From NCBI GenBank assembly GCA_029862125.1, contig JAOTXY010000012.1, positions 1-61,697 on the forward strand: a DNA stretch of 61,697 nt, given 5' to 3'. The position numbers and the translations under genes were made by a program. A model generated the notes under the pieces. The model worked only from the letters and a program-made list of their open reading frames with translations, made no database searches and was not told the origin of the DNA. Positions 1 to 36,660 of the stretch are shown in pieces. The DNA is from Gammaproteobacteria bacterium (GTDB lineage: Bacteria > Pseudomonadota > Gammaproteobacteria > GCA-001735895). How positions within the stretch are numbered: the stretch's first letter is position 1; each line of letters begins with the position of its first letter.

Positions 1-347
1 ATGATGGTCGCACCGCGGCCCAGCGATTCCTTGGCTTGTGCGGACAGTGCGCCGAAGCTCATGCCAGCAATGGTGATCGGGATTTTAAGCTCGATCGGCT
101 TCTTCGCGAATCGGGTGCCAAGGGTTACGCTGGTCTCACACTTTTCACGATACCCCTCGAGCGCATAACGTGACACGCTCGCACCCAGGAACAGCAGGTC
201 GTCGAAAGTCGGAATGACACGCTTGGCGCCACCGCCACGAATGTCATAAATACCCTCTGCCGCGGCTCTTTGAATTTCGGCGACGACGTGGGGCGGAAAG
301 GTGTGTGACGGACGCAGGCGTTTTTTGAAATCGTCTTGATCGGACAT
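1..347 (-). CDS. Glutamate-synthase-like FMN subunit, N-terminal part (GlxD/MgsC family), cut by window edge
   Basis: Only the first 115 codons are inside the window; the gene runs off the left edge. The start is the ATG at 345-347. The visible part is clearly related to the gene at 11396-12736: both carry the segments 'PTFDDL'/'PTWDDL', 'EGYREKC' and 'ITIAGMSFGAL'/'VYITGMSFGAL', which belong to the FMN-binding central domain of glutamate synthase. In the N-methylglutamate synthase (MgsABC) and GlxBCD families this is a stand-alone subunit. It sits 2 bp downstream of the GXGXG subunit and is the last of three genes in the order amidotransferase, GXGXG, FMN subunit. Known of the family: it forms N-methylglutamate or glutamate with the other two subunits. 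Which substrate this copy uses cannot be told. Confidence 0.85.
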   Translation of the reverse strand, partial: MSDQDDFKKRLRPSHTFPPHVVAEIQRAAAEGIYDIRGGGAKRVIPTFDDLLFLGASVSRYALEGYREKCETSVTLGTRFAKKPIELKIPITIAGMSFGALSAQAKESLGRGATI

Positions 348-349
348 GA

Positions 350-1030
350 CTAGTATTCTCCCGCATTGTCAATATTGAAGTTATAAAGCCTGCGCGCCGA
401 ACCATAACGCTTGAATCCGGAGGTATCGACATCGCCCATCCCCGCGGCTTCCAGCAACTCTTTTAGTTGCGCCCGATGCTCGTCTTCCATGGGTTTTTCG
501 ATGCAATCCGCACCCAGGCTGGCGACCTTGCCACCAACATAGAAACGAGCCTCGTAAGCCGAGTCGCCGAGTGCTTCGCCGGCGTCGCCGCAAACAACCA
601 GGCAACCGCTTTGCGCCATGAATGCGCTTAGATTACCGATGGATCCGCCAACCACGATGTCGACACCTTTCATGGAAATACCGCAACGTGAGGAGGTGTC
701 ACCCTCGACTATGACAAGGCCACCCTGGCCGGTCGCCGCGCAATACTGCGAAGCATTGCCCTTGACCCGCACGGTGCCGGACATGATATTTTCGGCGCAA
801 CCCGAGCCGGCGTTGCCGTTAATGGTGATGTTGGCATTCTGATTCATGCCACCACAGTAATAGCCTGCATGACCGTCAACCGTCACGGTCGAGTCATACA
901 TTGCGCCCACCGCAATCGAGTGTTTGCCGTTCGAATTACTTACGACGAATTCGGCCTTGTCCGCTGAATCCTGGTGCAGTGCCTGGTTCAGGTCGCGCAC
1001 GGTGTTGTCTTTGAGATCGAAATTTGTCAT
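350..1030 (-). CDS. GXGXG-domain glutamate synthase-like subunit (GlxC/MgsB family)
   Basis: The protein of about 226 residues has the repeating glycine-rich beta-helix pattern of the C-terminal (alpha-3) domain of glutamate synthase, e.g. 'GYYCGGMNQNANITI', 'GCAENIMSG' and 'FYVGGKVASLGADC'. This domain is structural and carries no active site. A GTG at 1031-1033 directly follows the upstream stop codon and is followed by ATG at 1028-1030; I prefer the ATG because a run of G lies 6 nt upstream. It is sandwiched between the amidotransferase and FMN subunits with almost no spacing, so the three are surely co-transcribed. A paralogue of 278 residues lies at 12766-13602, and this copy lacks that one's longer N-terminal extension. 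Confidence 0.88.
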   Translation of the reverse strand: MTNFDLKDNTVRDLNQALHQDSADKAEFVVSNSNGKHSIAVGAMYDSTVTVDGHAGYYCGGMNQNANITINGNAGSGCAENIMSGTVRVKGNASQYCAATGQGGLVIVEGDTSSRCGISMKGVDIVVGGSIGNLSAFMAQSGCLVVCGDAGEALGDSAYEARFYVGGKVASLGADCIEKPMEDEHRAQLKELLEAAGMGDVDTSGFKRYGSARRLYNFNIDNAGEY

Positions 1031-1033
1031 CAC

Positions 1034-1933
1034 TTACCCCCGATGCCAGCTATAGATCCGGGTCGGCACAGGCTCCCAGATGCGTGCATTCTCGACTCCT
1101 GGTAATGTTGCTATCGCGCGAAACTCCGAAGCCATCGCTGCCCAGTCATCGGTTTCAGCCATAACCGCAGGTTTACATCCGATGGGATCGACAACTACCG
1201 CGAAACCATCGTCCGTACCGACGGCAAAGGTATAAAAGCCGTCCAGATCTTTGAGGCCATTTTGCAGGGCTTCATCGAGGCTGTCTCCTTCCTGCATTCT
1301 CCAGGCCAGGTAACCCGCGGCCACTTCGCTGTCATTATCAGTTTCAAAGCTGATACCCTTCTTACGAAGCTCCTGGCGCAAACGGTTGTGATTGGACAGG
1401 GAACCGTTGTGGACAAGGCACAGGTCGAGCCCGGTAGAAAACGGGTGTGAATGTTCGGTGGTGATTGCCGACTCGGTCGCCATGCGGGTGTGGCCGAGCG
1501 CATGCGTACCGCTATAGTCCTCGAGACCGAAGTTGTCGATAAAATCAGCCGGTGAACCCTTGTCCTTAAAAATTTCAATTACTTCGCCCGCACCATTGAC
1601 GCGCAGTTCGGGATGGCTTTCCTGGATCCAGTTCTGTGCCAATGCCGGACTGGCGGCAACCTTGATGACGGCCTGGTCACGATGGTGGATGACTTCGGCG
1701 TCATCACCGAAGACATGCTTCAATCCATCGTGCAGCTCGTGCCAGGAATAGTCTTCATCGGGCGCCAGAACTGTCAGTTTTGCACTGCCTGCCGGCACTG
1801 GATCATGATAGATCGCTACTCCGGCGCTGTCGGGGCCGCGTTCCGACATTTCGATGAGCATACCCGACAGGTGCTTTCCCAGGTCTTTCTCCATTTCCGG
1901 GTTTTTAATAAACAATCCGACGATTCCGCACAT
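1034..1933 (-). CDS. Class II glutamine amidotransferase subunit (GlxB/MgsA family)
   Basis: The start was set at the ATG at 1931-1933 because it gives the N-terminal 'MCGIVG' with Cys as residue 2. That Cys becomes the Ntn nucleophile of class II glutamine amidotransferases after Met removal; longer starts would block it. Further family marks are 'RGPDSAG', 'GHTRMATES' and 'LVHNGSLSNHNRLR'. The length of 299 residues fits stand-alone GlxB/MgsA subunits, which hydrolyse glutamine (or, for MgsA, gamma-glutamylmethylamide) and pass ammonia or methylamine to the FMN subunit. It is the first gene of a compact three-gene set and has a paralogue at 13590-14528. Confidence 0.88.
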   Translation of the reverse strand: MCGIVGLFIKNPEMEKDLGKHLSGMLIEMSERGPDSAGVAIYHDPVPAGSAKLTVLAPDEDYSWHELHDGLKHVFGDDAEVIHHRDQAVIKVAASPALAQNWIQESHPELRVNGAGEVIEIFKDKGSPADFIDNFGLEDYSGTHALGHTRMATESAITTEHSHPFSTGLDLCLVHNGSLSNHNRLRQELRKKGISFETDNDSEVAAGYLAWRMQEGDSLDEALQNGLKDLDGFYTFAVGTDDGFAVVVDPIGCKPAVMAETDDWAAMASEFRAIATLPGVENARIWEPVPTRIYSWHRG

Positions 1934-1977
1934 AGCGACCTCTACACAGTTCGTTAAGTCCGCGCAGCGTAGTACAG

Positions 1978-2028
1978 ACAAAATTCACTGTCAACTGAAG
2001 TGAAATTTTGTTTCCTTACAGGAAACAA
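1978..2028. promoter_or_regulatory. Two overlapping dyads upstream of the left glutamate-synthase-like trio
   Basis: The 97-bp gap between the XRE-cupin regulator and the trio contains a near-perfect inverted repeat with arms ACAAAATTCACT (1978-1989) and AGTGAAATTTTGT (1999-2011). It overlaps a second perfect one, TTGTTTCC (2008-2015) and GGAAACAA (2021-2028). Neither is followed by a T-run on the gene-carrying strand, so they look like operator sites rather than a terminator. The adjacent XRE-cupin protein is the obvious candidate ligand; this is inference. Confidence 0.5.
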
Positions 2029-2029
2029 T

Positions 2030-2668
2030 CTAAGAGGTTGTTGCCTCTGAAATGATGATCGAAAGGTAACGACAGGGCAGTTTTTGTATTTCGTCCGGGC
2101 CATGCGACGCATCGGCATCGAAGAAAAGTGTGTCACCCGGCTCCAGGGTATAGGTTTTGTTTGCGTGTCGGTAAGTCACGCGTCCTTCCAGCATATAAAT
2201 CAGCTCGGTACCCGCATGTTGAAACACAGGAAACACTTCGGACTGATCGTCGATCGTGATCAGGTAGGGTTCGATATTATACGGCTTACCAATGGTGTGC
2301 CCAAGTAACTGGTATTGATGCCCGGCACCCGAACCGCGGCGCTCTATCGGCAACCCCTCACCCGCCTTGATATAGGTGACGTCACGTTGTTCCTCGTAGC
2401 CGCGAAAAAATGATGTCACCGGAACCTGCAATGCATTTGCGAGCGAGGTTAGCGTCGCCAGTGATGGCGAAGTCTGCCCGTTCTCGATTTTCGACAACAT
2501 GCCGGTCGACAACTGCGCCTGCTTGGCAAGCGCGGCGACGGTCAAATTCAGGCGCTTGCGTGACGTACGCACCTGCTTGCCAATCGCGATTTCGAGCGCC
2601 TCCACGCTATGCTGTTGGGACATCAAATCGTTATCGGCTGGCTGGTTATCAGGATCGGGCATCGGCAC
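2030..2668 (-). CDS. XRE-family transcriptional regulator with C-terminal cupin domain
   Basis: An N-terminal Cro/C1-type helix-turn-helix spans about residues 28-85 ('LAKQAQLSTGMLSKIENGQTSP'-like core, of which 'STGMLSKIENG' is diagnostic). A flexible link and a cupin_2 sensor domain follow (residues about 135-205, with 'HAGTELIYMLEG' and 'LEPGDTLFFDADASHG'). This architecture is common in regulators of amine and polyamine catabolism. The gene is divergent from tmm and lies directly upstream of the left glutamate-synthase-like trio, so it probably controls one or both. Perfect dyads lie on both of its flanks. The exact start is uncertain: GTG at 2668, ATG at 2662 and ATG at 2623 are all possible, and none has a good ribosome binding site. 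Confidence 0.85.
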   Translation of the reverse strand: MPMPDPDNQPADNDLMSQQHSVEALEIAIGKQVRTSRKRLNLTVAALAKQAQLSTGMLSKIENGQTSPSLATLTSLANALQVPVTSFFRGYEEQRDVTYIKAGEGLPIERRGSGAGHQYQLLGHTIGKPYNIEPYLITIDDQSEVFPVFQHAGTELIYMLEGRVTYRHANKTYTLEPGDTLFFDADASHGPDEIQKLPCRYLSIIISEATTS

Positions 2669-2750: not shown

Positions 2751-2873
2751 ATATATACAGATACCGGGCCATGTGGTTGACCATCGCGGTGATATTCCCT
2801 AACCTTGACGGCTCACAATTAAAACCATTTTCAAATAAAAATACCGATCAAAATCAGTTAGTTGGAGGATATG

Positions 2874-4214
2874 ATGAGCAAGCGTGTCGCAGTAATTGGA
2901 GCCGGCCCCAGCGGTCTGGCACAGTTGAGAGCCTTTCAGTCGGCTAAGGAAAAGGGTGCGGAAATCCCCGATATCGTCTGTTTTGAGAAGCAGGAGAACT
3001 GGGGTGGATTGTGGAATTACACCTGGCGTACCGGCCTCGATCAGCATGGCGAACCGGTTCACGGCAGCATGTACCGATACCTCTGGTCTAACGGCCCGAA
3101 AGAAGGCCTGGAATTTGCCGACTATTCATTCGAAGAACATTTCGGTCGTCCCATCGCATCTTACCCACCACGTGCCGTGTTGTTCGATTATATCGAGGGA
3201 CGCGTCAAACAGGCCGGCGTACGAGACTGGATTAGATTCAACTCATCCGTGCGTCACGTGCATTACGACGAACATGAAGGCATGTTTCATGTCACCGCGC
3301 AGGACCATGAAAAAGACGTCGAGTACACCGAGGAATTCGATCACGTTATCGTTGCTAGCGGTCACTTTTCAACTCCAAACGTACCGGAATATCCCGGCTT
3401 CGACACCTTCAAGGGACGTGTTTTGCACGCCCATGATTTTCGTGACGCGATGGAATTTTACGCCAAGGATATTCTGATCATCGGCACCTCTTACTCAGCC
3501 GAGGACATCGGCTCGCAGTGCTGGAAGTATGGCTGTAAATCCGTCACCGTTTCCCACCGCACTGCACCGATGGGATACAAGTGGCCGGACAACTGGAAAG
3601 AAGTTCCGCTGCTGGAAAAGGTCGAGGGCAATACCGCCACCTTTAAGGACGGCTCCACCAAGGATGTCGACGCGATCATCCTCTGTACCGGCTATCTGCA
3701 CCACTTTCCATTCATGGCTGAAAATCTTAAGCTCAAGACCAACAACCGCCTGTACCCGGTTAACTTGTACAACGGCGTGGTCTGGGAGCACAACCCCAAG
3801 CTGATGTACCTCGGCATGCAGGATCAGTGGTACACCTTTAACATGTTCGACGCCCAGGCCTGGTACGCGCGCGACGTAATCCTGGGCCGACTAGACGTTC
3901 CGTCTCAGGCCGAAATGCACGCGGATATCGATAAATGGCGCGAGGAAGAAGATAACCTTCCCGACGATTACGCCTGTATCGAATTCCAGGGCAAGTACAC
4001 CATGGACCTGATGGCGCTAACCGATTATCCCGAGTTTGATTGTGCCGGTGCGAACGAGGCTTTTTTCCAGTGGAAGAAGCACAAGAAGGAAAACATCATG
4101 ACCTTCCGTAACCACGGTTACAAGTCTGCACTAACCGGCACCATGGCTCCGGAACATCACACGCCGTGGCGCGATGCACTCGACGATTCGCTGGAAGCAT
4201 ACCTGCAAACCTGA
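2874..4214 (+). CDS. tmm: Trimethylamine monooxygenase (flavin-containing monooxygenase family)
   Basis: This soluble FMO oxidises trimethylamine to TMAO with NADPH and O2, the first step of aerobic TMA use in marine bacteria. The protein of 446 residues has the FAD site 'GAGPSG' (residues about 9-14), the FMO-type signature around '[11 protein letters not shown]', and the NADP site '[10 protein letters not shown]' (about residues 205-214). It shows the hallmark Tmm segments '[16 protein letters not shown]', '[16 protein letters not shown]' and '[12 protein letters not shown]'. The start is ATG 2874 (giving MSKRVAVIG as in known Tmm), 6 nt after GGAG; an ATG 3 nt earlier is less well placed. 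It is divergent from an XRE-cupin regulator and followed by a terminator hairpin. The match to bacterial Tmm is along the full length, so I am confident. Generic FMO or Baeyer-Villiger activity is much less likely. Confidence 0.95.
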
Positions 4215-5011: not shown

Positions 5012-6316
5012 TCAATTAGTCTTGATGTCTTCAGGATAAGCCATGGCTTCGACCTCGACGTCCATGCCAACCTCCTGTACGCCATCGCTGGCGCGCAGTA
5101 TTCCGAGCACCTTGAACAGCCAGCCGAAGACAAAACCGGGCACGAAGCCGAGCAAGAACATTACGATCATACCCTTGAACTGGCCACCGAAGGTTATTGT
5201 CGGAATGCTGTCCGAAAACTGCGGGTACCCGCCAAGGAAGATTCCGGCAAACAGCACGCCGAGAATACCGCAGGTGCCATGTACCGAAACCGCGCCAACC
5301 GCGTCGTCGATGCCAAACTTTTCGAATAACTGGGCCGAAATTGGGCCGACAATACCACCGACGAATGCCAGAACGAAGGTCAGACCCGGATAGTACAGGT
5401 CCATACCCGAAGCCACCGAAATAATGCCGCAAAGCGCGCCGGACATCATCCAGAACGGATCGCGGGTCTTCATGTAGGCGCCGATCATACCGCCAGCCAC
5501 GCCCATCAACGTGTTGAAACAAATCGTCGATAGCGTTGTCGGCATGCCGTAAATATTGGCCCATTCGGTTGCATACCAGCTTACGCTGGTTCCCGGAAAG
5601 ATAAGACAGCCGCCGAGGAAGCCAAAGAAGCCAACAACAATCAGCATCAGACCGACCATGGTCATCGGCAGGCTGTGCCCGCGAATCACGTTGGCGGAAC
5701 CATCCGCATTAAACTTGCCGATCCGCGGCCCGAGATGAATTAGTACGCCGAGTGCAAAAAAGCCAGAGACCATATGTACCAACCCGGAGGCGCCAAAATC
5801 ATGGTAACCCCACTCGGTAACCATCCAACCGGCATAATGCCAACTCCAAGAAGCGGCCAGAATCCAAACTACTGAACCCAGAATCACGGCGAGAATAATA
5901 AACGCGGTCATGCGAATGCGCTCGATTACCGCACCGGACATGATCGACGCCGTGGTACAGGCAAACAGCGTGAATGCGCCCCAGAATACGCCGGACGCGT
6001 TATCCTGCATGTTCGGTCCCATATTTTCGCCCCAGGGTACACCGGCGGCACCCGCTTCGAAATCAGGAACAAAGCCGTTGGTCATCGCCAGGTAGATCCA
6101 CCATCCGAACATCCAGAAGGTAGGAATCATATAGGCAAATGCGAGGATATTTTTGGTTCCCGCCGCAAGCGTATGCTTGACTCGTGAAGCCCCCATTTCA
6201 TACATCATGAAGCCTGCATGAATCAGGATCATAACAGCCGTACACCAATAGTAATAAACCTCGAGGTTTATCTCATTGGCCACCGCAATTGCGGCTTGTA
6301 GTTCTTCAGGTGACAT
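5012..6316 (-). CDS. amt: Ammonium/methylammonium transporter family protein (Amt), copy 1
   Basis: Polytopic Amt/Mep/Rh-family channel of 434 residues with about 11 membrane helices. The twin-His pore residues are seen in 'SGLVHMVSG' and 'VSVHGTCGILG'. The family Asp ahead of the first His is kept ('YHDFGASGLVH'), but the usual Ala-Gly-Gly after it is altered. At the position of E. coli AmtB Ser219 the segment 'GFFGFLGGC' gives Cys. These changes are shared with the second copy at 9339 and define an unusual subfamily. The gene is followed 11 bp on by a small membrane protein gene and then a terminator. A good NtrC-type site lies about 235 bp upstream, suggesting nitrogen control. Given the neighbouring methylamine genes, methylammonium may be a substrate (inference). 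Confidence 0.92.
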   Translation of the reverse strand: MSPEELQAAIAVANEINLEVYYYWCTAVMILIHAGFMMYEMGASRVKHTLAAGTKNILAFAYMIPTFWMFGWWIYLAMTNGFVPDFEAGAAGVPWGENMGPNMQDNASGVFWGAFTLFACTTASIMSGAVIERIRMTAFIILAVILGSVVWILAASWSWHYAGWMVTEWGYHDFGASGLVHMVSGFFALGVLIHLGPRIGKFNADGSANVIRGHSLPMTMVGLMLIVVGFFGFLGGCLIFPGTSVSWYATEWANIYGMPTTLSTICFNTLMGVAGGMIGAYMKTRDPFWMMSGALCGIISVASGMDLYYPGLTFVLAFVGGIVGPISAQLFEKFGIDDAVGAVSVHGTCGILGVLFAGIFLGGYPQFSDSIPTITFGGQFKGMIVMFLLGFVPGFVFGWLFKVLGILRASDGVQEVGMDVEVEAMAYPEDIKTN

Positions 6317-7332: not shown

Positions 7333-8211
7333 TTATTCCGGAATCTCGACATGGTTAAGGCGACAGGCTTGCTGCAAGGTGTTATGCAACAGGCAAGCGA
7401 TTGTCATCGGCCCTACGCCTCCCGGCACCGGTGTGATGGCACCGGCCACGTCGGCCGCGGTACCAAATTCAACATCGCCCACCAGTCGCGTGGTGCCATC
7501 TTCATTCTCAATACGATTAATACCGACATCGATGACGGTGGCGCCCGGCTTGATCCAGTCGCCCTTGACCATTTCAGGGCGCCCTACCGCCGCGACCACG
7601 ATATCCGCCTGGCGGCATTCACCCGGCAGGTCGCGGGTGCGCGAATGCGCGATAGTAACGGTGCAACTCTCCTTGAGTAGCAGTGCAGCCATCGGCTTGC
7701 CAACAATATTAGAACGTCCGACTACGATGGCTTTCATACCGGAAAGATCGCCGAGCTGATCCTTGAGCATCATCAGTGAACCCAGCGGTGTGCAGGGTAC
7801 GATACCGTCAGCACCGATCGAGAGGCGACCGACATTGGACAGGTGAAAACCATCGACGTCCTTATCGACCGAAATAGAGTTGATCACCGCTTCTTCGTCG
7901 ATGTGATCCGGCAAGGGCAATTGCACCAGGATACCGTGAACATCGGGATCATTATTTAACTGGTCGATCAGTGCCAGCAAGTCATCCTGGCTGGTACTCG
8001 CGTCGAGTTTATGCTCGTAGGAATTCATGCCCGCTTCCTGGGTTTGCTTGCCCTTGCTACGCACGTATACCTGGCTCGCAGGATCCTCGCCCACCAGCAC
8101 CACGGCAAGCCCCGGTGTCAGGGAATGATTCTGTTTTATAATTTCGACCTTGCGTGCGATTTCTCCGCGCAGGTTCGCCGAAAACGCCTTACCATCAATT
8201 ATCGTGGCCAC
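7333..8211 (-). CDS. folD: Bifunctional methylene-THF dehydrogenase / methenyl-THF cyclohydrolase
   Basis: Interconverts 5,10-methylene-THF and 10-formyl-THF with NADP. 292 residues, the usual FolD length. Seen motifs are the catalytic '[14 protein letters not shown]' (Tyr/Lys), '[13 protein letters not shown]', '[11 protein letters not shown]', the nucleotide loop '[17 protein letters not shown]' and the C-terminal '[10 protein letters not shown]'. The start is GTG at 8209-8211, which yields the normal N-terminus. FolD is a housekeeping enzyme. Here it also fits the local pathway: TMAO demethylase releases C1 as methylene-THF, and FolD is the next step to formyl-THF. Confidence 0.97.
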
Positions 8212-9338: not shown

Positions 9339-10745
9339 TTACCCGGCTTCTTCACGAATCGCGCGCGCTACTTCCGCGGCATCCTCTGCTCTCTGCGTTT
9401 CGAAGTTGATATCCAGACCAACCATTTCGATTTCACGCGGGATACGCAGCTTGCCCATGCCGTGCAGGATCTTCGACACAATCAGTGCCGGAAAGAAACC
9501 CAGTACGAAGAACATGATCAAGGCACCCAGGAAGTTGCCCCATGGGGAAATGGGTGCATAGCCTTCGAACGGAGAGGACGGATAACCCCACAGCATGAAA
9601 CCAGCCACGACAATACCGTAAAAACCGGCATAACCATGCACCGCAACCGCACCGACGGCGTCGTCGATCTTGAACTTGCGCTCTACCCAGAAATGCATCT
9701 TGTAAGCGAGAATTGCACCGCCGGCACCAATCAGCATGGCCTGGATCGGGTGGTACAGGTCGTTACCCGACGAGGCGCCGATGATACCCGCCAGACCACC
9801 GGAGTAGGTCCAGAACGCGTCACCATCCGAAATCAGGTAGGCCGCCATCAGACCGCCCGATAGCGACATCAGGAAGTTAAAGGTAATCGCTGACAGAGTG
9901 GTTGGCTGCAGATATATGTTGGTGGCACTGAAGAAGGTCTTGTCCGGCACATCCAGCATCGCGGGACCATAGACATCGATAATCGGGATATTACAGGCCA
10001 CGTAGAAGCCCCAGAAACCGGTATAGATGAGGAACAGCCCAATCGTTACCAGCCAGGGATTATGCGGATTAATATTCCGTGGCGTACCGTCAGCAGCGAA
10101 TTTACCGATACGTGGACCCAGCACCAGTAGTACGCCCAGCGCGAAACCGCCGGCTATCGCGTGGATTACACCGGACGCGTAGGCATCGTGATAACCCAGT
10201 TTTTGCACCATCCAGCCATTCCAGGACCAGCCCCAGGAAGCGTCGATGATCCAGGTAAAGGAACCGATGACCACAGCCAGTACCCAGAAAGCGCTGGGGC
10301 GGATACGCTCGATGACCGCACCGGAGACGATGGAAGCGGCAGTCCAGGAGAACAGCAGGAAAGCAGCCCAGAACACGCCGTTAATACGCGCCCAGAAGGC
10401 GGTATCGTCCGCGGTCAGGACACCGCCTTCTTGCGGTGCACCACCCATATGCGTGCCCATCAGCTCGCTCCACGGCGTCGCAAAGGGCGCGTCTACCAGG
10501 GGACCGATGATCCACGGACCATTGACAAAGGCAAAATAAATCCACCAGCCGAAGAAAAAGAAGGTGACAGTTACCAGCGGGATAACCATGGTGTTCTTCA
10601 TCAGGGTGTGCGTGTGGTTCTTGTAGCGTGAGGCGCCAACCTCATAAACGCAGAAACCGACGTGAATCAGGAACATGAACACGACGGTGACCCAATAATA
10701 AAACTCGGTAAATATTATCCCGAGCGCGGTTAGCTCGTTATCCAT
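9339..10745 (-). CDS. amt: Ammonium/methylammonium transporter family protein (Amt), copy 2
   Basis: 468 residues from ATG 10743-10745, 4 nt after GGGGGAG; 30 further upstream codons lack a binding site and were excluded. Amt-family helices and the twin-His residues are visible ('SGVIHAIAGGFALG' and 'VAVHGYAGFYG'), with the paired Asp in 'YHDAYASG'. The AmtB Ser219 position reads Cys ('GFWGFYVAC'), as in copy 1. Compared with copy 1 there is a longer external loop after helix 3 and a longer C-terminal tail. It lies downstream of the glutamine-synthetase-like operon on the same strand but 248 bp away, so it probably has its own promoter. Confidence 0.92.
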   Translation of the reverse strand: MDNELTALGIIFTEFYYWVTVVFMFLIHVGFCVYEVGASRYKNHTHTLMKNTMVIPLVTVTFFFFGWWIYFAFVNGPWIIGPLVDAPFATPWSELMGTHMGGAPQEGGVLTADDTAFWARINGVFWAAFLLFSWTAASIVSGAVIERIRPSAFWVLAVVIGSFTWIIDASWGWSWNGWMVQKLGYHDAYASGVIHAIAGGFALGVLLVLGPRIGKFAADGTPRNINPHNPWLVTIGLFLIYTGFWGFYVACNIPIIDVYGPAMLDVPDKTFFSATNIYLQPTTLSAITFNFLMSLSGGLMAAYLISDGDAFWTYSGGLAGIIGASSGNDLYHPIQAMLIGAGGAILAYKMHFWVERKFKIDDAVGAVAVHGYAGFYGIVVAGFMLWGYPSSPFEGYAPISPWGNFLGALIMFFVLGFFPALIVSKILHGMGKLRIPREIEMVGLDINFETQRAEDAAEVARAIREEAG

Positions 10746-10993
10746 TTTTCTCCCCCTTATAGTTATGAGAATTGTTAAATTTAAACCGGCATCCTGCTGG
10801 CATACCACGCAATGATTTTCAAACAGCCTGCTCACTCACAGGAAAATTTAACTACTCGAATGAAAACCCCCACCCTTTATATTTATTAAAGATCCGTATA
10901 AATAACATATAAAGACTTCGTGATCAAAATAGCGAAAAGGATCATCGGTAACTCCAGATAATACTTTTCGCCCGCTAATTGCTCGTACCCTCT

Positions 10994-11383
10994 TCAGGTG
11001 AATTTTTCGTACGCTTTGCGAAGATCAACCATCGGGTGACCGCTTGCCATCTGGAATTTTACCAGTAGCTCACGCGCGATCATGTCCCGGTCCTGCTGGT
11101 TATCCGGCAATTCGATATCGTCGGGAATGGTGACCCAGCCGTTGATGTTGCGATCGAATACCGCGGGATTGCCTTCCTCGTAGCCCATGTGCACGTCTTC
11201 AAGCCAGTTCAGATCGCTCCAGCCCATGACTTCCATATACTTATGCAAAAACGGCGTGCAGCGCTCCATATCGGGCACCAGGTTTACATCGTAACGATAG
11301 CCGATGTGTTGACCGATGATCTTCTCACGCTCGGTATCAACGCCGTCGCCTTCGAGGAATTGGTTAATATCTTGTTCAGCCAT
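10994..11383 (-). CDS. Conserved small protein at the end of the glutamate-synthase-like operon
   Basis: 129 residues, acidic, no membrane segment, no Cys cluster apart from 'MERCTPF'. A perfect AGGAGG lies 8 nt ahead of the ATG. It begins 12 bp after the FMN subunit gene, so it belongs to the same transcript. Aromatic and acidic patches ('GWSDLNWLEDVHMGYEE', 'PDDIELPDNQQDRDMIA') suggest a soluble partner protein. I do not recognise the family. The left-edge copy of the operon is cut before this position, so it cannot be seen whether it has one too. Confidence 0.8.
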   Translation of the reverse strand: MAEQDINQFLEGDGVDTEREKIIGQHIGYRYDVNLVPDMERCTPFLHKYMEVMGWSDLNWLEDVHMGYEEGNPAVFDRNINGWVTIPDDIELPDNQQDRDMIARELLVKFQMASGHPMVDLRKAYEKFT

Positions 11384-11395
11384 TACTGGTTCCTC

Positions 11396-12736
11396 CTAGA
11401 AACGTGTCATGTCGGGACGACCGACAGTGTGTTGAGTACCCGCCATCGGTACCTGCGCACAGGCCGAGGCTTCCATGGTCAGCGCCGCCAGGTCTTCCGG
11501 CTCGAGCGAATGGATGTTGGTCTTGCCACAAGCGCGCGCGAACAACTGCGCCTCGATGGTGAGCGTATGCAGAAAGTTGTAAACCCGCTCCGCCGCTGAA
11601 TCAGGATCGAGACGCTGACGCAGGATCGGATCCTGGGTAGCAACGCCGACAGGGCAACGACCGGTGTGGCAGTGATAGCAGTAGCCGGCTTCGACACCCA
11701 TCTCGTTCGGAAAATCAGCTTCCGGAATATCCTTGTTACAGTTCAACGCGATCAGCGCAGAGTGACCGATTGCAACCGCGTCTGCACCCAGCGCAATCGC
11801 TTTTGCCAGGTCAGCGCCATTACGGATTCCGCCAGCGTAAACCAGCGTAATTTCACCCGACATGCCGACATCGTCGAGGGCCTGGCGCGCCTGGCGAATC
11901 GCCGCGATGCCGGGAACACCGGTATCTTCGGTTGCAAGGTGAGGTCCGGCACCGGTACCCCCTTCCATACCGTCGATGTAGATCGAATCGGGTCCGGTCT
12001 TGGCGGCCATGCGCACGTCGTCATAGACGCGTGCCGCACCCAGCTTCAACTGAATCGGAATCTGCCCATCGGTGGCTTCGCGAACTTCCTGGATCTTCAG
12101 TGCCAGGTCATCCGGTCCCATCCAGTCAGGATGACGCGCCGGCGAACGCTGATCGATACCAGCAGGGAGTGAACGCATTTCGGCCACCTGGTCGGTTACT
12201 TTCTGACCCATCAGGTGTCCGCCGAGACCCACCTTACAGCCTTGACCAATAAAGAACTCGACTGCATCAGCAAGGCGCAAGTGATTTGGGTTAAAGCCGT
12301 AACGCGACTGGATACACTGGTAAAACCACTTGGACGAGTAACGACGCTCGTCGGGAATCATGCCGCCTTCACCGGAACAGGTCGCGGTGCCCGCCATGGT
12401 GGCACCGCGTGCCAACGCGGTCTTGGCCTCGTAGCTCAAGGCACCAAAAGACATCCCGGTGATATAAACCGGAATATCAAGCTCCAGCGGAACCTTGGCA
12501 TTGGGACCAATGACGGTTTTGGTCAGGCACTTTTCACGATAACCCTCGATAACGAAACGCGTCAGGGTACCCGGCATGAAAGTCAGGTCGTCCCAGGTCG
12601 GAATCTTCTTGAACAGCGAAAAACCGCGCATGCGGTAACGACCGAGCTCAGCCTTGATGTGAATATCATTCATCACCTCGGGTGGGAAGATGAAACTGTT
12701 CCCCAGGTGGTATGGATCTATTTTTTTATCAGACAT
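11396..12736 (-). CDS. mgsC: FMN-binding glutamate synthase-like subunit (MgsC/GlxD family)
   Basis: 446 residues from ATG 12734-12736 (GGAG about 9 nt upstream). The TIM-barrel FMN domain shows 'ITGMSFGALS', 'IPIQLKLGAARV', 'DGMEGGTGAGP', 'YAGGIRNGADLAKAIALGAD' and the [3Fe-4S] motif 'CYHCHTGRCPVGVATQ'. In N-methylglutamate synthase this subunit adds methylamine (delivered from gamma-glutamylmethylamide) to 2-oxoglutarate; in glutamate-synthase-like relatives it adds ammonia. The gene order glutamine-synthetase-like, amidotransferase, GXGXG, FMN subunit matches methylamine-use clusters. The same order is also known from glnT-glx loci of rhizobia, so the substrate is inferred rather than seen. 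It has a paralogue at the left window edge. Confidence 0.85.
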   Translation of the reverse strand: MSDKKIDPYHLGNSFIFPPEVMNDIHIKAELGRYRMRGFSLFKKIPTWDDLTFMPGTLTRFVIEGYREKCLTKTVIGPNAKVPLELDIPVYITGMSFGALSYEAKTALARGATMAGTATCSGEGGMIPDERRYSSKWFYQCIQSRYGFNPNHLRLADAVEFFIGQGCKVGLGGHLMGQKVTDQVAEMRSLPAGIDQRSPARHPDWMGPDDLALKIQEVREATDGQIPIQLKLGAARVYDDVRMAAKTGPDSIYIDGMEGGTGAGPHLATEDTGVPGIAAIRQARQALDDVGMSGEITLVYAGGIRNGADLAKAIALGADAVAIGHSALIALNCNKDIPEADFPNEMGVEAGYCYHCHTGRCPVGVATQDPILRQRLDPDSAAERVYNFLHTLTIEAQLFARACGKTNIHSLEPEDLAALTMEASACAQVPMAGTQHTVGRPDMTRF

Positions 12737-12765
12737 CTTACATTTCTCCAAGATAAAGCTCGTGC

Positions 12766-13602
12766 CTAGAGCACCAGTTTCTTCTCTGTAGGTTCGAGGT
12801 TATCGTAGTTCCACAATTGCTTGCCGGAAGTCAGTTTGATCATGCTGTCGATGCCGTTTGGCGCCGACATGTCATATTGAGACAGCTTGCCTTCGAGGTA
12901 ACGCTTGTCGAGGTCGGTCATTTCGGTCTCGACGCAATCCACACCCAGGCTGGCAATCTTGCCACCCACGTAAATGGTACCGTCATACATCGAATCGCCG
13001 AGATTATCGCCGGCGTCACCGAGGATAATCATGCGACCACGTTGCATCATGAAGCCGGTAAAGGCTCCAACGCTGTCACCCACAATAATGGTGCCACCCT
13101 TTTGATCGATACCGACACGCGCACCTGCCTGCCCCTTACAAACCAGGTCGCCACCGCGAATCGCGGCGCCGAACAGCGAACCCGCATTTTTTTCGATCAC
13201 CACCTTGCCCGCCATCATGTTTTCTGCACATGACCAACCGACTCGACCACTGATGTGGATATTGGGACCATCGATCAGACCGCAGCCAAAGTAGCCGAGA
13301 CTGCCTTCGAAATTCAGATTCAAACGATTCAGAATCCCTACTCCGAGAGAGTGTTTGGCGCGCGGATTTTTCACGGTGATCGTACCGTGCCCAGATTTCA
13401 TCAAGTCACGAATCGCGATATTGATTTCGGCAATTTCCATATCTGCGGCGTCGAACTCGGCCGATTTTTCAAAATCAACTTCGTAGCCCCATGGATAGGT
13501 GAAATTCTCTTCCTCGGTCGCCGAGAAGAACATTTGCTGGGTACGACCCGCGAGCTGCTCTTCATGCAGCCCCATGTCATGGGATGTGGTTACGCTGCCC
13601 AT
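12766..13602 (-). CDS. mgsB: GXGXG-domain glutamate synthase-like subunit (MgsB/GlxC family)
   Basis: 278 residues with a right-handed beta-helix of repeated glycines ('GYFGCGLIDGPNIHI', 'GWSCAENMMAG', 'TIYVGGKIASLGVDC'), homologous to the C-terminal domain of glutamate synthase. It has an N-terminal extension of about 50 residues not present in the copy at 350-1030. The ATG at 13600-13602 is 7 nt after GGGGAGG and overlaps the end of the amidotransferase gene by 13 bp, indicating translational coupling. It provides a structural interface between amidotransferase and FMN subunits. Confidence 0.86.
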   Translation of the reverse strand: MGSVTTSHDMGLHEEQLAGRTQQMFFSATEEENFTYPWGYEVDFEKSAEFDAADMEIAEINIAIRDLMKSGHGTITVKNPRAKHSLGVGILNRLNLNFEGSLGYFGCGLIDGPNIHISGRVGWSCAENMMAGKVVIEKNAGSLFGAAIRGGDLVCKGQAGARVGIDQKGGTIIVGDSVGAFTGFMMQRGRMIILGDAGDNLGDSMYDGTIYVGGKIASLGVDCVETEMTDLDKRYLEGKLSQYDMSAPNGIDSMIKLTSGKQLWNYDNLEPTEKKLVL

Positions 13603-14528: not shown

Positions 14529-14628
14529 AAGATTATCCTCTCGAAATTAAAACTAGCTGCCAGAGCAGCAGAAATTTGTGCCGAAACCCGGCGCGGGCAA
14601 TGCCGACGCCGGGCAGGAACAAGCTTTG

Positions 14629-16098: not shown

Positions 16099-16328
16099 AT
16101 TACCCTCCAACGGTTAAAGACTTAAACGCTTCAATTCTTCGGTTCTACAGATGGATTAATCCGACTTTTATAACTATGTTTTTCATCGGAAAACGCATCG
16201 TAGCGTTGCCCAGCCTGCGATTTGGGCGCAACAAACAGGCCGTCATGTTATACCCATCAGGTTGCACAAAACAAGACCCAAAGTACGTTTTTTTGGACAA
16301 TTCCTGAAAGAAATAGTGAAATGAGTGG

Positions 16329-22385: not shown

Positions 22386-23338
22386 GTAAGCAGTCACCCA
22401 GGATGAAATCCATGTTTGGCGGCACTCCGAGTGGCGGATTTTTTGATCTGCCGCTGCAAAGTCCCGGCGATACCGGGGATGCCGATATCGTCCTGTTGGG
22501 TGCACCTGCCGCAACCCCCTATGCAAGTGTCGGCAATTACTGCGCCGAGGCTGCGGATGCGATTCGCGGCGCCTTCGGCTGGCCCGGGGTGCTGGGACAT
22601 CATGATTTCGACATCGACGGTTATCTGCTGCCTGATGGTATCAGGGCCATCGACTGGGGAAATCTCGACTACAGCGAAACTGACTTCGCCGCCAATCGCG
22701 CTACGATTCGCGATTGCGTCAGCAAGATTCTCGCCGCAAAGGCGATACCACTGGTTCTGGGTGGAGACGATTCGGTTCCTATTCCGGTGCTCGAGGCATA
22801 CCGCGAACACGGCCCGCTGACCATTTTGCAGCTTGATGCGCATATCGATTGGCGGGATGATGTCAACGGTGAAACCATGGGGCTATCGAGTAATATGCGT
22901 CGCGCCTCCGAGATGGACTGGATCGAGAATATCATCCAGGTCGGCGCACGCGGTATCGGTAGCGCTCGCCCGCAGGACCGGCAGGACGCGCTCGACTGGG
23001 GAGTACAGTTTTTTCCGATGCGTGACGTGGTACAGAACGGAATCGACGCCATCATCGATTCGATTCCTGAAAATTCGAATCTCTATATCGCACTCGATAT
23101 CGATGTTATGGATCCTGCGGTAGTGCCCGCGGTAATCGGTCCGGCGCCAGGTGGATTTTCATACTGGCAAATTCTCGAAATTTTTGAGGCCGTAACAAAA
23201 CGCGCACGGATTGCAGGCTTTAACCTGGTCGAATTGATGCCGAGCGCCGATGTCGGTGGTCGTGGCGCTCTAGTCGCGGCACGCTTGGTCGCTATGATCA
23301 TGGGCCTGGCGGCGCGGCAAAGGCATCACCTGGTATAG
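22382..23338 (+). CDS. Ureohydrolase (arginase/agmatinase) family protein with altered metal motif
   Basis: 318 residues. Metal-binding motifs in order: 'VLGGDDSVPIP' (about residue 126, where the family normally has GGDHS), 'LQLDAHIDWRDD' (about 150), 'ALDIDVMDPAVVPA' (about 238). All Asp ligands are present, but the His of the first motif is Asp. The family hydrolyses guanidino compounds to urea plus an amine (agmatine, guanidinobutyrate, guanidine and others). An N-terminal segment 'GAPAATPYASVGNYCAEAADAIR' corresponds to the substrate-side loop of agmatinase relatives. Substrate is unknown; with methylamine genes nearby a methylated guanidine is a possibility only. The 4-bp overlap with the cyclase gene implies coupled expression. 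Confidence 0.85.
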   Translation: MSKQSPRMKSMFGGTPSGGFFDLPLQSPGDTGDADIVLLGAPAATPYASVGNYCAEAADAIRGAFGWPGVLGHHDFDIDGYLLPDGIRAIDWGNLDYSETDFAANRATIRDCVSKILAAKAIPLVLGGDDSVPIPVLEAYREHGPLTILQLDAHIDWRDDVNGETMGLSSNMRRASEMDWIENIIQVGARGIGSARPQDRQDALDWGVQFFPMRDVVQNGIDAIIDSIPENSNLYIALDIDVMDPAVVPAVIGPAPGGFSYWQILEIFEAVTKRARIAGFNLVELMPSADVGGRGALVAARLVAMIMGLAARQRHHLV

Positions 23339-24354: not shown

Positions 24355-24360
24355 GACGGC

Positions 24361-31375: not shown

Positions 31376-31406
31376 AAACCGGTTCGGGTAGAAAACGCTT
31401 GATAAA

Positions 31407-31432
31407 ATGAAAAATTATCATTAAATTTTCAT
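31407..31432. promoter_or_regulatory. Inverted repeat in the Rieske/flavoprotein divergent promoter
   Basis: ATGAAAA (31407-31413) and TTTTCAT (31426-31432) form a dyad with extra partial symmetry between them, in a 91-bp A/T-rich gap. A regulator-binding site for the co-located XRE-cupin protein is plausible. Confidence 0.35.
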
Positions 31433-31466
31433 AGATGCAAAATTACTGCTTATATTTTTCACTTCT

Positions 31467-32642: not shown

Positions 32643-32728
32643 GAATTCTGGAAATTGGACGTGGCCACTCTTCAAACCTCTTCACGTTTCCTAATGAAAC
32701 TATGCTCGGAGAGCTTAGGTTCGCTGGG

Positions 32729-33511
32729 CTAGAATCTCAGGGAAAGGCACGACATCCCGCCATCCAGCCTGGCGCACTCGCTATTGTTTATTTCGCGCAC
32801 CTCGTAACCCGCCTCAAGCAGACGATCTCGAGTTCCGGTGAACCCGGCCGGCATCAGCACAAGACGGTTGTAGCGGATCGTATTTGCGGCGGCTTCCTCG
32901 CCTTCACAGGTATGGATCACATGATAATTCTCAAAGCAGCCTGAGGCATCCAGGCGCCTGGTCGACAGAATCGTTTCCGCATCCAGCAGCGAGCAATCCG
33001 TTTTGAAATGCAACACACCCTCGGGCGTCATCACTTCGCGCAGCTGGTAACCGAACTGACCGACAATTTCCGCAAGCTCCGTGACGCCGGCTTTATCGGT
33101 TCGGGCAGAGCGCCCCACCAGGATTTCTGTTGAAGTGGTGAGAATATCACCCCCTTCGATAAAACCGGGCCCTTTAATTTCAAGCACCTGGTCGTACACA
33201 TCGCGCAATACCGGGGCTATTTCGCCGACTTCCCCGAGGCGAGACAGTGCGCCCGGGCGCATCAGGATGGCGACTTCAGGCAGGCAAAGCGCGACGTCCT
33301 CGACAAAAACGGAATCCGGATAGGCCTCGACTGCGGGCAATTCAGTCACACTGGCACCTGCCTCTTTCAGAGTCGCAACATAGTGCGCGTGATCCCTGAG
33401 CATTTGAGCATGATCCGGGTTGCCAAGATCCTCCGCCCTTAAACCATTGACAATACTGTGTGCGGGCAGCCGGGTGATGGCACGAGTAAATTCGTACGAA
33501 AATTCGGTCAA
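32729..33511 (-). CDS. Dimethylarginine dimethylaminohydrolase (DDAH)
   Basis: 260 residues, TTG start 9 nt after GGAG. Full-length similarity in pattern to bacterial DDAH: 'AHSIVNGLRAEDLGNPDHAQ', 'FPDSVFVED'-type 'YPDSVFVEDVALC', catalytic Glu in 'GFIEGGDIL', His in 'LHFKTDCSLLD' and the nucleophile Cys in the C-terminal 'GGMSCLSLRF'. DDAH turns asymmetric dimethylarginine into citrulline and dimethylamine; relatives include arginine deiminase. Release of dimethylamine fits the surrounding amine-oxidation genes. It is followed in the same direction as the PanB-like gene upstream (41 bp), so probably one transcript. Confidence 0.92.
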   Translation of the reverse strand: MTEFSYEFTRAITRLPAHSIVNGLRAEDLGNPDHAQMLRDHAHYVATLKEAGASVTELPAVEAYPDSVFVEDVALCLPEVAILMRPGALSRLGEVGEIAPVLRDVYDQVLEIKGPGFIEGGDILTTSTEILVGRSARTDKAGVTELAEIVGQFGYQLREVMTPEGVLHFKTDCSLLDAETILSTRRLDASGCFENYHVIHTCEGEEAAANTIRYNRLVLMPAGFTGTRDRLLEAGYEVREINNSECARLDGGMSCLSLRF

Positions 33512-33552
33512 AATTTAGTTCTCCGTTCTGGTCAGCTAAAAACTTGCAGGGA

Positions 33553-34377: not shown

Positions 34378-34593
34378 TTACTAAGCCACCCTGGTTATCG
34401 ACAAATTTAGCCAGTGCCGCCTTTAGAGGCATACAATTGGCACTTGAATGAGAAACCCTCGATCGAGATTGTAACGACAAAGTCACTATCATCAAGTTGA
34501 ATTAGTTAGGGCTAAGCATAGTCACTTCCCGCTAGTCGTCGCTTTTTGTGAGGTATGAGTGATAGTCTAGCGGCTAGAATCAGGAGTCTTCAC

Positions 34594-36660
34594 ATGTCAC
34601 GAGATCCCCGTTACGACGTACTGTTCGAGCCGGTTAAAATCGGGCCCGTAACCGCTAGAAACCGTTTCTACCAGGTCCCTCACTGCACCGGCCTGGGCTG
34701 GCTCCGACCACGCATGGTCGCCGCCTTACGCGGCATGAAGGCCGAGGGCGGTTGGGGCGTGGTTTGCACCGAATTCTGCTCGATCCATCCCGCGTCGGAC
34801 GACCTGCCCCACCCTTACGCGTCGCTCTGGGACCAGGGCGATATCAGGGCGCACTCGATCATGACCGAGCAAGTGCATGAGCACGGCTCGCTCGCGGGCG
34901 CAGAACTCTGGTTCGGTGGCTCGCGTACCACCAACCTGTTTAGCAACGAAGTCGCGATGGACGTGGCTAACCTGCCGAACGCCATCGGCATACCTTACCA
35001 GGCACGCGCAATGGACAAATCCGATATCCGTGAACTCAGGCGCTGGCACCGAAACGCCGCACTGCGTGCGCGCGATGCCGGCTTCGATATCGTCTACGTC
35101 TATGCCACCCATGGCTACCTGCTGTCGCATTTCCTGTCGTCGAAAACCAACACCCGTAGCGACGAGTACGGGGGATCACTTGAAAACCGGGTGCGATTGG
35201 TGCGCGAGTTGATCGAGGAAACAAAAGATGCCGTCGGTGATCGCTGCGCGGTTGCGGTGCGCTTTTCTGCCGACGAGGGCGGTGACGACGATGGCGATCC
35301 AGTAATCGGTGAGCACCGCGACATGATCGAAATGCTGGCCGAACTGCCGGATCTATGGGACATCAATATCAACGACTATTCCCGCGAAATGGGGGTATCG
35401 CGCTTCATCAAGGAAGGCTCGCTGGAAGCCTACATGTCATACGTTAAATCGATCACCAGCAAACCCGTGGTGACAGTGGGCCGCTTCACCTCGCCCGACA
35501 CCATGGTGTCACAGGTCAAGCGCGGTATCGTCGATTTTATCGGCGCCGCCCGGCCATCCATCGCCGATCCTTTCCTGCCGAAGAAAATAGAGGAAGGTCG
35601 CATCGATGAAATCCGCGAATGCATCGGCTGCAACATCTGTTACACCGGCGATGGCACCTCCACGCCGATCCGCTGCACCCAGAATCCCACCATCAGCGAG
35701 GAGTGGCGGCGCGGCTGGCACCCTGAAAAAATCGCACCAAAGGGTTCAGATTCAAATGTTCTGGTCATCGGCGGCGGCCCCGCCGGGCTCGAAGCAACGC
35801 GGGCACTCGGGCGCCGGGGTTACCATGTGATGCTGGCCGAGGCTCAACATACTCTCGGTGGGCGGGTCAATCAGGAATCCGAACTTCCCGGGCTTGGCGA
35901 ATGGGCGCGCGTGCGCAACTACCGGGTACACGAAATCCAGAATATGCATAACGTCGATGTCTACTTCGATAACCTGATGGATGCCGAGCATGTACTCGCG
36001 GTCGAGGCAAATCATATTGTCATCGCCACCGGTGCCAGCTGGCTTGCGAATGGGCGCGGTTTGTACAACCAGACGCCGCTCGATGAACTGGGACCGGCCG
36101 AACAGGTATTTACGCCGGACGACATCATGGCCGGACGATTGCCCGAGAGCCCTACCCTGATTTACGACGACGATCATTACTACATGGGCAACGTGATCGC
36201 CGAGTTACTGCGCTCGAGGGGTATTCCGGTGACGCTGGTGACACCGGAGGTCATGGTATCAAACTGGGGCGATTACACCGGTGAACAGGGCCGCATACAG
36301 CGACGCATGATGGAACTGGAGGTCGATATTATCACCTCGCATGCCCTGGTTGCCTTCAACGGCAACACAGCTGAACTAGAATGCACTTACACCGGTAATC
36401 GCAGCAATATCGACGTCGGTGCGGTGGTGACCGTGACCATCCGCTCCCCCAACGACACACTGTTTCACGAACTGCAACAGGGCCTCGAAGCCGGAACCGG
36501 CTATAAACCGGACTCGCTGACCCGGATCGGAGACTGCCTGACGCCAACCATCATTGCCGGGGCCGTGTTCTCTGGCCATCGTTACGCGCGCGAACTCGAC
36601 ACCGAGGTAGATCCCGACAATCGCATGAAATACGACCGTGTTTTTTTCGACGATGAGTAA
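34594..36660 (+). CDS. Trimethylamine/dimethylamine dehydrogenase-family flavoprotein with altered substrate pocket
   Basis: 688 residues from ATG 34594 (AGGAG 7 nt upstream; this start matches the known mature N-terminus, and a GTG/ATG 13 codons earlier does not). The protein matches TMADH over its whole length: 'FYQVPHC' with the Cys (residue 31) that carries covalent FMN, 'FDIVYVYATHGYL', 'GAARPSIADPFLP', the [4Fe-4S] motif 'CIGCNICYTGD' plus a later Cys, and the ADP/FAD-binding 'VLVIGGGPAGLEATRALG'. The three aromatic residues that bind trimethylamine in TMADH are not kept: Tyr60 becomes Phe ('TEFCSIHP'), the 'AEW' Trp264 segment is shortened to 'SREMG', and Trp355 becomes Asp. So a dimethylamine, histamine-like or other amine substrate is likelier than TMA. 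Electrons would go to an ETF not seen here. Confidence 0.88.
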   Translation: MSRDPRYDVLFEPVKIGPVTARNRFYQVPHCTGLGWLRPRMVAALRGMKAEGGWGVVCTEFCSIHPASDDLPHPYASLWDQGDIRAHSIMTEQVHEHGSLAGAELWFGGSRTTNLFSNEVAMDVANLPNAIGIPYQARAMDKSDIRELRRWHRNAALRARDAGFDIVYVYATHGYLLSHFLSSKTNTRSDEYGGSLENRVRLVRELIEETKDAVGDRCAVAVRFSADEGGDDDGDPVIGEHRDMIEMLAELPDLWDININDYSREMGVSRFIKEGSLEAYMSYVKSITSKPVVTVGRFTSPDTMVSQVKRGIVDFIGAARPSIADPFLPKKIEEGRIDEIRECIGCNICYTGDGTSTPIRCTQNPTISEEWRRGWHPEKIAPKGSDSNVLVIGGGPAGLEATRALGRRGYHVMLAEAQHTLGGRVNQESELPGLGEWARVRNYRVHEIQNMHNVDVYFDNLMDAEHVLAVEANHIVIATGASWLANGRGLYNQTPLDELGPAEQVFTPDDIMAGRLPESPTLIYDDDHYYMGNVIAELLRSRGIPVTLVTPEVMVSNWGDYTGEQGRIQRRMMELEVDIITSHALVAFNGNTAELECTYTGNRSNIDVGAVVTVTIRSPNDTLFHELQQGLEAGTGYKPDSLTRIGDCLTPTIIAGAVFSGHRYARELDTEVDPDNRMKYDRVFFDDE

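Follow-up and report, generated by a model that had tools for sequence, protein, structure and literature searches.

The window analysed here is the whole of contig C52 (61,697 bases; JAOTXY010000012.1), part of a gammaproteobacterial draft genome of 188 contigs (3.70 Mb, 91% complete, 3% contamination). A sequence-only reading of its first 36,660 positions had described a nearly complete region for methylated-amine catabolism in a sulfur oxidiser. We scanned 30 open reading frames (ORFs) within positions 1–36660 against NCBIfam and Pfam and 10 further ORFs, nine of them outside that range, against NCBIfam; Rfam and tRNA scans of the window each gave no match. Both tmm, encoding trimethylamine (TMA) monooxygenase, and tdm, encoding trimethylamine N-oxide (TMAO) demethylase, lie where they had been placed and clear curated equivalog cut-offs (Table 1), the Tdm protein carrying PF09347 (DUF1989) together with the GcvT domains PF01571 and PF08669. 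Two Amt-family proteins and FolD were likewise recovered by Pfam and NCBIfam matches. Between the Amt genes and tdm lies a five-gene module (positions 10994–16110) encoding a glutamine synthetase (GS)-like protein, Gsl, three MgsABC-type subunits and a small conserved protein, HypC. While the earlier gene list holds up with corrections, the key result is that this module, gsl-mgsA1-mgsB1-mgsC1-hypC, is conserved, is distinct from GmaS-MgsABC, and is found where Dmm should be.

The known enzyme acting after Tdm is DmmDABC, according to the accessible part of Lidbury et al. 2017 (PMC5520151). The family of its HODM subunit, PF11927, had no match in the source genome, in the window or outside it, where a look for dmmABC had been proposed. 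A TMA/TMAO catabolic region is thus supported, but the description as nearly complete conceals a gap in the known pathway at the step that consumes dimethylamine (DMA). The best candidate for filling this gap is the set formed by gsl and MgsABC1.

In order to survey the module, we searched the GTDB species set with an alignment of nine Gsl proteins from the same genus, which returned at least 560 stretches encoding gsl. We examined the best 80 of these (74–96% identity), a set that includes same-genus loci, and counted neighbours (mgs, hypC, tdm, amt, GntR and c7, a gene described below) only on loci with enough flanking sequence. mgsA1, mgsB1, mgsC1 and hypC were each present in 47 of the 51 loci where the sequence runs on for at least 5.2 kb beyond gsl. 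Among the 31 loci in which gsl is flanked on each side by 8 kb, 18 carried tdm within the stretch and 20 carried Amt genes, and a GntR gene stood upstream of gsl in 37 of 73. Records titled SUP05 or Thioglobus, Pelagibacteraceae, Rhodospirillales, Betaproteobacteria and cyanobacteria are among the 80. Where SAR11 loci have sufficient flanking sequence, most share the order tdm-c7-gsl-mgsABC1-hypC-amt, followed by GmaS with or without MgsABC2. Gene blocks of the window are also syntenic in stretches from nine same-genus genomes, and therefore the linkage of the region is not due to chance. HypC matched no NCBIfam or Pfam family, and its structural model (mean pLDDT 78) had no PDB fold match at E ≤ 0.001; it nevertheless has 54 invariant columns across 24 sequences and 67–94% identity to 23 relatives in SAR11, SUP05 and others.

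The sequence-only reading had grouped the GS-like gene with an MgsABC-like set. The GATase, GXGXG and Glu_synthase genes are indeed present; identity of the GS-like protein with canonical GmaS was rejected. Its match to TIGR03105 falls below the cut-off, in two stretches, and its active site and the accompanying MgsC both differ from those of the GmaS system. In GS, Asp50′ binds and deprotonates ammonium and a Glu flap completes catalysis, and RhGmaS has Ala48′ and Trp300 at those two positions, as reported in the available portion of PMC7948447. We aligned 71 Gsl proteins, namely the window protein and those from 70 of the 80 loci with Gsl of at least 470 aa and at least 60% identity. All 71 carry Trp at the Glu flap and Tyr in the Asp50′ column, Asp50′ being located in the FDGSS motif. 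Of 15 GmaS-type paralogues in the same alignment, 13 have Trp and two have Phe at the Glu flap; the Asp50′ column of 14 of the 15 aligned as Gly and not Ala, and Ala at this site is taken from PMC7948447. Gsl thus looks like an amine ligase that has given up ammonia as a substrate and whose pocket differs from the one in GmaS. Judged from these residues, two aromatic side chains would be a good fit for a methylated ammonium ion.

The partner subunits are also set apart. In a tree of MgsC proteins, the 64 gsl-linked sequences form one clade (64/64, support 0.92) that contains none of the 13 GmaS-linked ones. A C..C....C motif occurs in all 64 gsl-linked MgsC proteins and is missing from all 14 proteins outside the clade; we take it to be an iron-sulfur (Fe-S) ligand, as in glutamate synthase. 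MgsA1 and MgsA2, the latter from a second set described next, both start MCGI, in which the N-terminal Cys is the expected nucleophile.

The second, canonical-type MgsABC set occupies positions 3–1981 and is interrupted by the contig end. Contig C171 carries the remainder of mgsC2 and a true type III GS gene (TIGR03105, 657 bits; cut-off 470). The first 174 bases of the window are the last 174 of C171 with six differences, as if two strain variants had been assembled, and in a near relative (G030) puuR1-mgsA2-mgsB2-mgsC2-GS are contiguous. The left-edge set resembles the gmaS-mgsABC genes that four genomes with dmm carry next to tmm and tdm (L197, L198, L199 and L201), where the GS proteins are 28–29% identical to Gsl and the MgsB proteins 55–59% identical to MgsB2. 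Since the genome also encodes a canonical GmaS and MgsABC2, methylamine use does not require the gsl unit. Several other GS-family genes are also present. As a separate observation, a third kind of Mgs set occurs in L103 and L116 and in the same-genus stretches L034, L039 and L043 (mgsA ∼43% and mgsC ∼39% identical to set 1); in the same-genus stretches it adjoins tmm, with a further mgsC-like half gene nearby.

To examine how gsl and Dmm are distributed, we compared genomes of the same genus. gsl was found in 26 of 31 genomes and PF11927 in only one, G014 (99% complete), which lacks gsl. On its contig C48, genes for a GcvT protein, a DmmA-like protein, a ferredoxin-reductase-like protein and HODM lie in dmmD-A-B-C order. 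The second protein exceeds both Pfam cut-offs for DmmA-like domains (80.7 bits against 33 and 60.4 against 27.4), and the fourth is named HODM by Pfam, with no NCBIfam name at E ≤ 1e-10. G014 keeps the tmm-folD-amt-tdm order with only 1 kb between amt and tdm, the interval that in the window holds hypC, the mgs and gsl genes and gntR. Two of the other genomes without gsl, G016 and G026, also lack tdm, and one genome (G007) has gsl with no tdm match.

A similar division was found across the phylum. From 398 genomes drawn without regard to gsl, 26 besides the source genome carried tdm at E ≤ 1e-180, and in 24 the match exceeded the curated Tdm cut-off. PF11927 matched in 25 of these 26 (G014 was included in this search as a 27th genome), and 24, representing nine families, had dmmA-B-C neighbours when the G014 proteins were used as queries. 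The genome without PF11927, G113, is the only one of the 26 with a close gsl (77%), and there c7, gntR, gsl, mgsABC1, hypC, tmm and tdm lie within ∼17 kb of one contig. Conversely, we searched for PF11927 and tdm in the genomes of 50 of the 80 gsl loci; the other 30 (same-genus contigs, short contigs, near-duplicate SUP05/SAR11 records and some others) had been left out before any Dmm result. At the same limit, 38 of the 50 carried tdm. PF11927 matched in three of the 50, in each case a paralogue (27–29%) lacking dmmAB neighbours, and dmmABC was found in none. Thus, among tdm-bearing genomes dmmABC occurs in 0 of 38 chosen by gsl and in 24 of 26 drawn from the phylum (Fisher's exact test, p ∼1e-15, ignoring relatedness and completeness). 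Exclusion is favoured by the nine families among these 24, by the several classes named in the titles of the gsl-chosen records, and by the repetition of the swap inside a single genus.

We rejected a match to PF11927 as proof, by itself, of Dmm. Some proteins of the family, forming a second class, lack dmmAB neighbours, so that the domain alone overcounts Dmm, and we therefore checked by neighbours the best match of every phylum-drawn genome having one and the three matches in gsl-chosen genomes. Members of this second class, seen in L165, L166, L168, L169, L174, L175 and L176, are 24–29% identical to the G014 HODM subunit.

Taken together, the link of the gsl unit to the DMA step is well supported at the level of the module, and we consider it probable that the unit serves DMA catabolism without Dmm. 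We infer DMA as the substrate, along with all intermediates and the roles of the Fe-S motif, HypC and the Amt proteins. In the route that we propose, Tdm, and perhaps a DDAH-like protein, would release DMA, which Gsl would join to glutamate at the cost of ATP, yielding gamma-glutamyl-dimethylamide. MgsABC1 would then free DMA from the amide and condense it with 2-oxoglutarate, and reduction by its FMN, with electrons passing through an Fe-S cluster, would give N,N-dimethylglutamate. An FAD oxidoreductase, either c7 or of the SoxBDAG/MgdABCD type, would take off both methyl groups as C1-tetrahydrofolate for oxidation by FolD. For this particular chemistry, through gamma-glutamyl-dimethylamide and then N,N-dimethylglutamate, we see about equal chances of its being right or wrong.

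Candidates for the later steps were found in the genome and beside gsl elsewhere. c7 is a 447-aa SoxB-like FAD oxidoreductase of the DAO family (TIGR01373, 82 bits, cut-off 529; PF01266, 110 bits) encoded directly upstream of gsl at some loci (for example L135:8574–9923), and is a candidate N,N-dimethylglutamate demethylase. The N-methylglutamate dehydrogenase genes sought outside the window are represented by two soxBDAG/mgdABCD-type operons on contigs C44 and C58, whose SoxA proteins score 1475 and 1401 bits against a model (cut-off 1164) that does not tell sarcosine oxidase from Mgd; the last gene of one operon runs off its contig. The C58 SoxA clusters with proteins encoded next to gmaS-mgs sets (L198, L200 and L201) and with one next to a gsl unit (L092), and the C44 SoxA groups with the SoxA beside the gsl unit in L104. 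SoxB-like and SoxA-like genes lie near the unit or gsl in L092, L104, L117, L118 and L129, on the opposite strand in L104. Additionally, the genome contains one pair of electron transfer flavoprotein (ETF) genes, also among those suggested for a search, and numerous other proteins with GcvT domains turned up in the search for soxA. Given these operons, the ETF pair and the GcvT proteins, it is plausible that N-methylglutamate and N,N-dimethylglutamate are demethylated to C1-tetrahydrofolate.

The regulator between gsl and tdm is 37–38% identical to GntR proteins encoded in two dmm-type clusters (L200 and L198), and in L200 the gene is 1.5 kb away from tmm, in keeping with the published position of tmoR. 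According to the available part of PMC13390433, tmm is repressed in Ruegeria pomeroyi by TmoR, a GntR-family protein with DMA as its main effector. By this similarity, the window GntR fits a putative DMA-responsive promoter between gsl and tdm.

Several observations weigh against a role in DMA catabolism, and some of them point to other substrates. Two same-genus genomes, G011, in which the tdm contig ends beside gntR, and G024, with a tdm fragment, have neither gsl nor PF11927, and the tdm-bearing G171 has neither gsl nor Dmm, only a lone PF11927 paralogue (24%) without dmmAB. The gsl-chosen genomes are mostly draft metagenome-assembled or single-cell genomes, unlike the nearly complete tdm-bearing ones drawn from the phylum, and missing sequence or lifestyle could therefore account for some of the lack of Dmm. 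Five cyanobacterial loci (L119, L123, L127, L136 and L140) hold gsl without mgsABC1 nearby. A c7 gene stands before gsl in only 29 of 73 loci, and in the source genome the two are not neighbours. Tdm itself was not found in 12 of the 50 gsl-bearing genomes at E ≤ 1e-180 and passes its curated cut-off in only 27; the matches in G090, G092, G100 and G102 (813–838 bits) lack the first 120–150 positions. Proteins related to Gsl at 54% identity are encoded in the Dmm-bearing genome G489 (L179:7756–9201) and, at ∼54%, on Paracoccus and Ruegeria plasmids (NZ_CP098363.1 and NZ_CP065360.1). The 12 gsl-bearing genomes without a Tdm match, together with more distant relatives (38–54%) on Paracoccus, Ruegeria, Streptomyces, Rhodococcus and Gordonia plasmids, could mean that the unit acts on another amine, such as ethylamine, ethanolamine or another secondary amine, and is tied to tdm by shared ecology or regulation. 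That reading predicts neither the exclusion of Dmm nor the swap seen in G014, and we find it quite improbable. Similarly, family membership and the Amt genes near gsl would agree with an ordinary ammonia-assimilating GS and a glutamate-synthase-like set supplied by Amt transporters. Since both ammonia-specific residues are replaced in every aligned Gsl and the genome has other GS-family genes, this can be given very little credence.

The gsl unit might instead be a second methylamine route, made up of a diverged GmaS and a diverged N-methylglutamate synthase, in bacteria that lack Dmm and excrete the DMA released by Tdm. Its architecture is that of GmaS-MgsABC and the Trp at the Glu flap is common to both, and the glnT-glxBCD genes of SAR11 strain HTCC1062 were assigned to methylamine in Sun et al. 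2011, as far as that report was accessible (PMC3160333). Four SAR11 loci (L133, L135, L146 and L147) contain gsl, MgsABC1 and GmaS with no MgsABC2 within the stretch, and there MgsABC1 may also serve methylamine. RhGmaS also favours methylamine, with a Km of 27 µM against 16 mM for DMA in the portion of PMC7948447 at hand; ligation of DMA thus has a precedent in RhGmaS, though not as its main activity, and DMA use by Gsl requires a changed pocket. On the other side, canonical GmaS and MgsABC2 lie beside or accompany the unit here and in several loci, and exclusion of Dmm is unexpected from a methylamine route because Dmm-bearing clusters also have GmaS-MgsABC. Moreover, HTCC1062 can use TMAO as its only source of nitrogen, according to the accessible text of PMC8918994, and this requires DMA breakdown. 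We therefore judge a second methylamine route unlikely, and retain DMA as the favoured substrate.

Table 1. Positions in the window, and supporting matches, of the gsl module and other genes discussed in the text.
Feature	Coordinates	Strand	Evidence
gsl, GS-like amine-glutamate ligase; proposed gamma-glutamyl-dimethylamide synthetase	14629..16110	-	TIGR03105 298 bits, two stretches, cut-off 469.6
mgsA1, class II glutamine-amidotransferase-type subunit, N-terminal MCGI	13590..14528	-	GATase_6/7; sequence
mgsB1, GXGXG subunit	12766..13602	-	PF01493 62 bits
mgsC1, glutamate-synthase-type FMN subunit, Fe-S cysteine motif	11396..12751	-	PF01645 305 bits; separate clade
hypC, conserved 129-aa protein, fifth gene	10994..11383	-	alignment; no family match
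GntR/FCD regulator between gsl and tdm, TmoR-like	16652..17395	+	PF00392, PF07729
tdm, TMAO demethylase, dimethylamine source	17406..19772	+	NF053776 equivalog 1211.9 bits, cut-off 1100
tmm, trimethylamine monooxygenase	2862..4214	+	NF058570 equivalog 838.2 bits, cut-off 675
PuuR-type helix-turn-helix (HTH)-cupin regulator adjoining tmm	2030..2668	-	NCBIfam and Pfam scans
Amt-family transporter 1	5012..6316	-	PF00909 205 bits
folD	7333..8211	-	NF010785 497 bits, cut-off 396
Amt-family transporter 2	9339..10835	-	PF00909 185 bits
mgsA2	1034..1981	-	GATase; MCGI start near 1933
mgsB2	350..1033	-	GXGXG 30.6 bits, just below Pfam cut-off 32.5; TIGR03122 similarity
mgsC2 start	3..347	-	continues on contig C171 beside GmaS
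Adenylate cyclase with HAMP domain	20589..23338	+	
DDAH-like protein, possible second dimethylamine source	32729..33511	-	NF045658 219 bits, cut-off 450
TMADH-family dehydrogenase	34555..36660		nearer histamine dehydrogenase than TMADH
GH149 1,3-beta-glucan phosphorylase	42268..45735	+	1721 bits, cut-off 1150

Other genes of the region were also re-examined. Both Amt proteins exceed the Pfam cut-off and fall well under that of TIGR00836 (200 and 174 bits against 343). The adenylate cyclase gene overlaps an arginase-family gene and is kept beside tdm in several relatives. DDAH, an enzyme that releases DMA, had been listed for the region; the protein found falls below the NCBIfam cut-off, and its best solved relatives are DDAHs (182 bits). 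The dehydrogenase assigned to the trimethylamine dehydrogenase (TMADH) family belongs to it, although it is nearer to histamine dehydrogenase (703 bits) than to TMADH (532), and is one of two OYE/TMADH-superfamily proteins in the window. At the sites of the TMADH aromatic bowl, which we take to be Tyr60, Trp264 and Trp355, it has Phe, Tyr and a gap beside Asp. We rejected it as a general DMA dehydrogenase, since the bowl residues are absent and the gene was found in the stretches of one of nine same-genus genomes, not all of which cover the site.

For the predicted Rieske demethylase, the Rieske gene is present and its specificity is less secure than predicted (GbcA, 135 bits, cut-off 670); the protein is alike, at ∼102 bits, to two demethylase-type structures (4qup and 3vca, the latter presumably Stc2) and to carnitine monooxygenase. 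The PanB-like protein exists, its match being confined to roughly the final two thirds of the family profile. Together with HTH-cupin, OYE and DDAH-like genes, the Rieske and PanB-like genes (28805–34377) recur in G020 near aprMBA; homarine-type clusters in the literature offered no explanation for this block. Within the apr operon, aprB (202 bits, cut-off 135.65) and aprA (1094 bits, cut-off 641.75) are secure, and aprM is assigned by position and weak similarity to QmoC (31 bits, cut-off 300), with no Pfam match. The aprBA pair indicates a probable sulfur oxidiser with a reverse-type adenosine 5′-phosphosulfate (APS) reductase. The GH149 gene lies directly before the apr genes. G+C content is low (0.42–0.46) in three of the four 2-kb bins of 50001–58000, unlike most of the window.

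The gsl unit is thus a concrete candidate for the missing DMA step in SAR11, SUP05 and others. According to the accessible sections of Lidbury et al. 2017 (PMC5520151), all SAR11 representatives lack dmmDABC, a metabolic bottleneck from which DMA could reach the air and form aerosols; dmmDABC is likewise missing from Gamma- and Deltaproteobacteria that are abundant in the sea, and Thioglobus-related sequences of tmm and tdm were recorded. A 2022 paper, as far as its text was available, supposed an unknown Dmm isoenzyme in HTCC1062, which lacks dmmDABC and grows on TMAO nitrogen (PMC8918994); the gsl unit could explain this growth. We found no report proposing the unit for DMA in the open-access literature, most subscription papers and preprints lying outside that search. 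If the proposal is right, estimates of DMA consumers from dmm alone are too low, and the step costs ATP and not oxygen, which would suit low-oxygen sulfur oxidisers. Whether an unrecognised, oxygenase-free DMA pathway in SAR11, SUP05, this genus, Rhodospirillales and others closes the bottleneck in the surface ocean appears to us finely balanced.

The unit can be compared with four known systems. Like GmaS-MgsABC-MgdABCD, it has a ligase adjoining MgsA-B-C, Trp in place of the Glu flap and, at some loci, SoxBDAG-type genes nearby. In contrast, Gsl is only ∼24–29% identical to GmaS-type proteins of dmm-type loci, falls under the type III cut-off and has Tyr instead of Ala at Asp50′; MgsC1 forms a separate clade with Fe-S cysteines, hypC is an extra gene, and the unit coexists with the canonical set. 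By the logic of gene content it would fill the same step as DmmDABC using other protein families, Dmm being an oxygenase while the proposed gsl route would spend ATP and no oxygen, and the two are mutually exclusive in the tdm-bearing genomes examined. The Ruegeria pomeroyi TMA cluster (SPO1548–1588) shares tmm, tdm, gmaS-mgsABC, mgd, amt and a GntR regulator; it has dmmDABC, and the gsl unit does not appear in the available parts of its published descriptions (PMC5520151, PMC13390433), on which alone this comparison is based. Lastly, HTCC1062 glnT-glxBCD (SAR11_1313–1316), judged by gene order in other SAR11 loci, is probably the same unit, published as a methylamine system with no role in DMA proposed in the accessible part of that report (PMC3160333).

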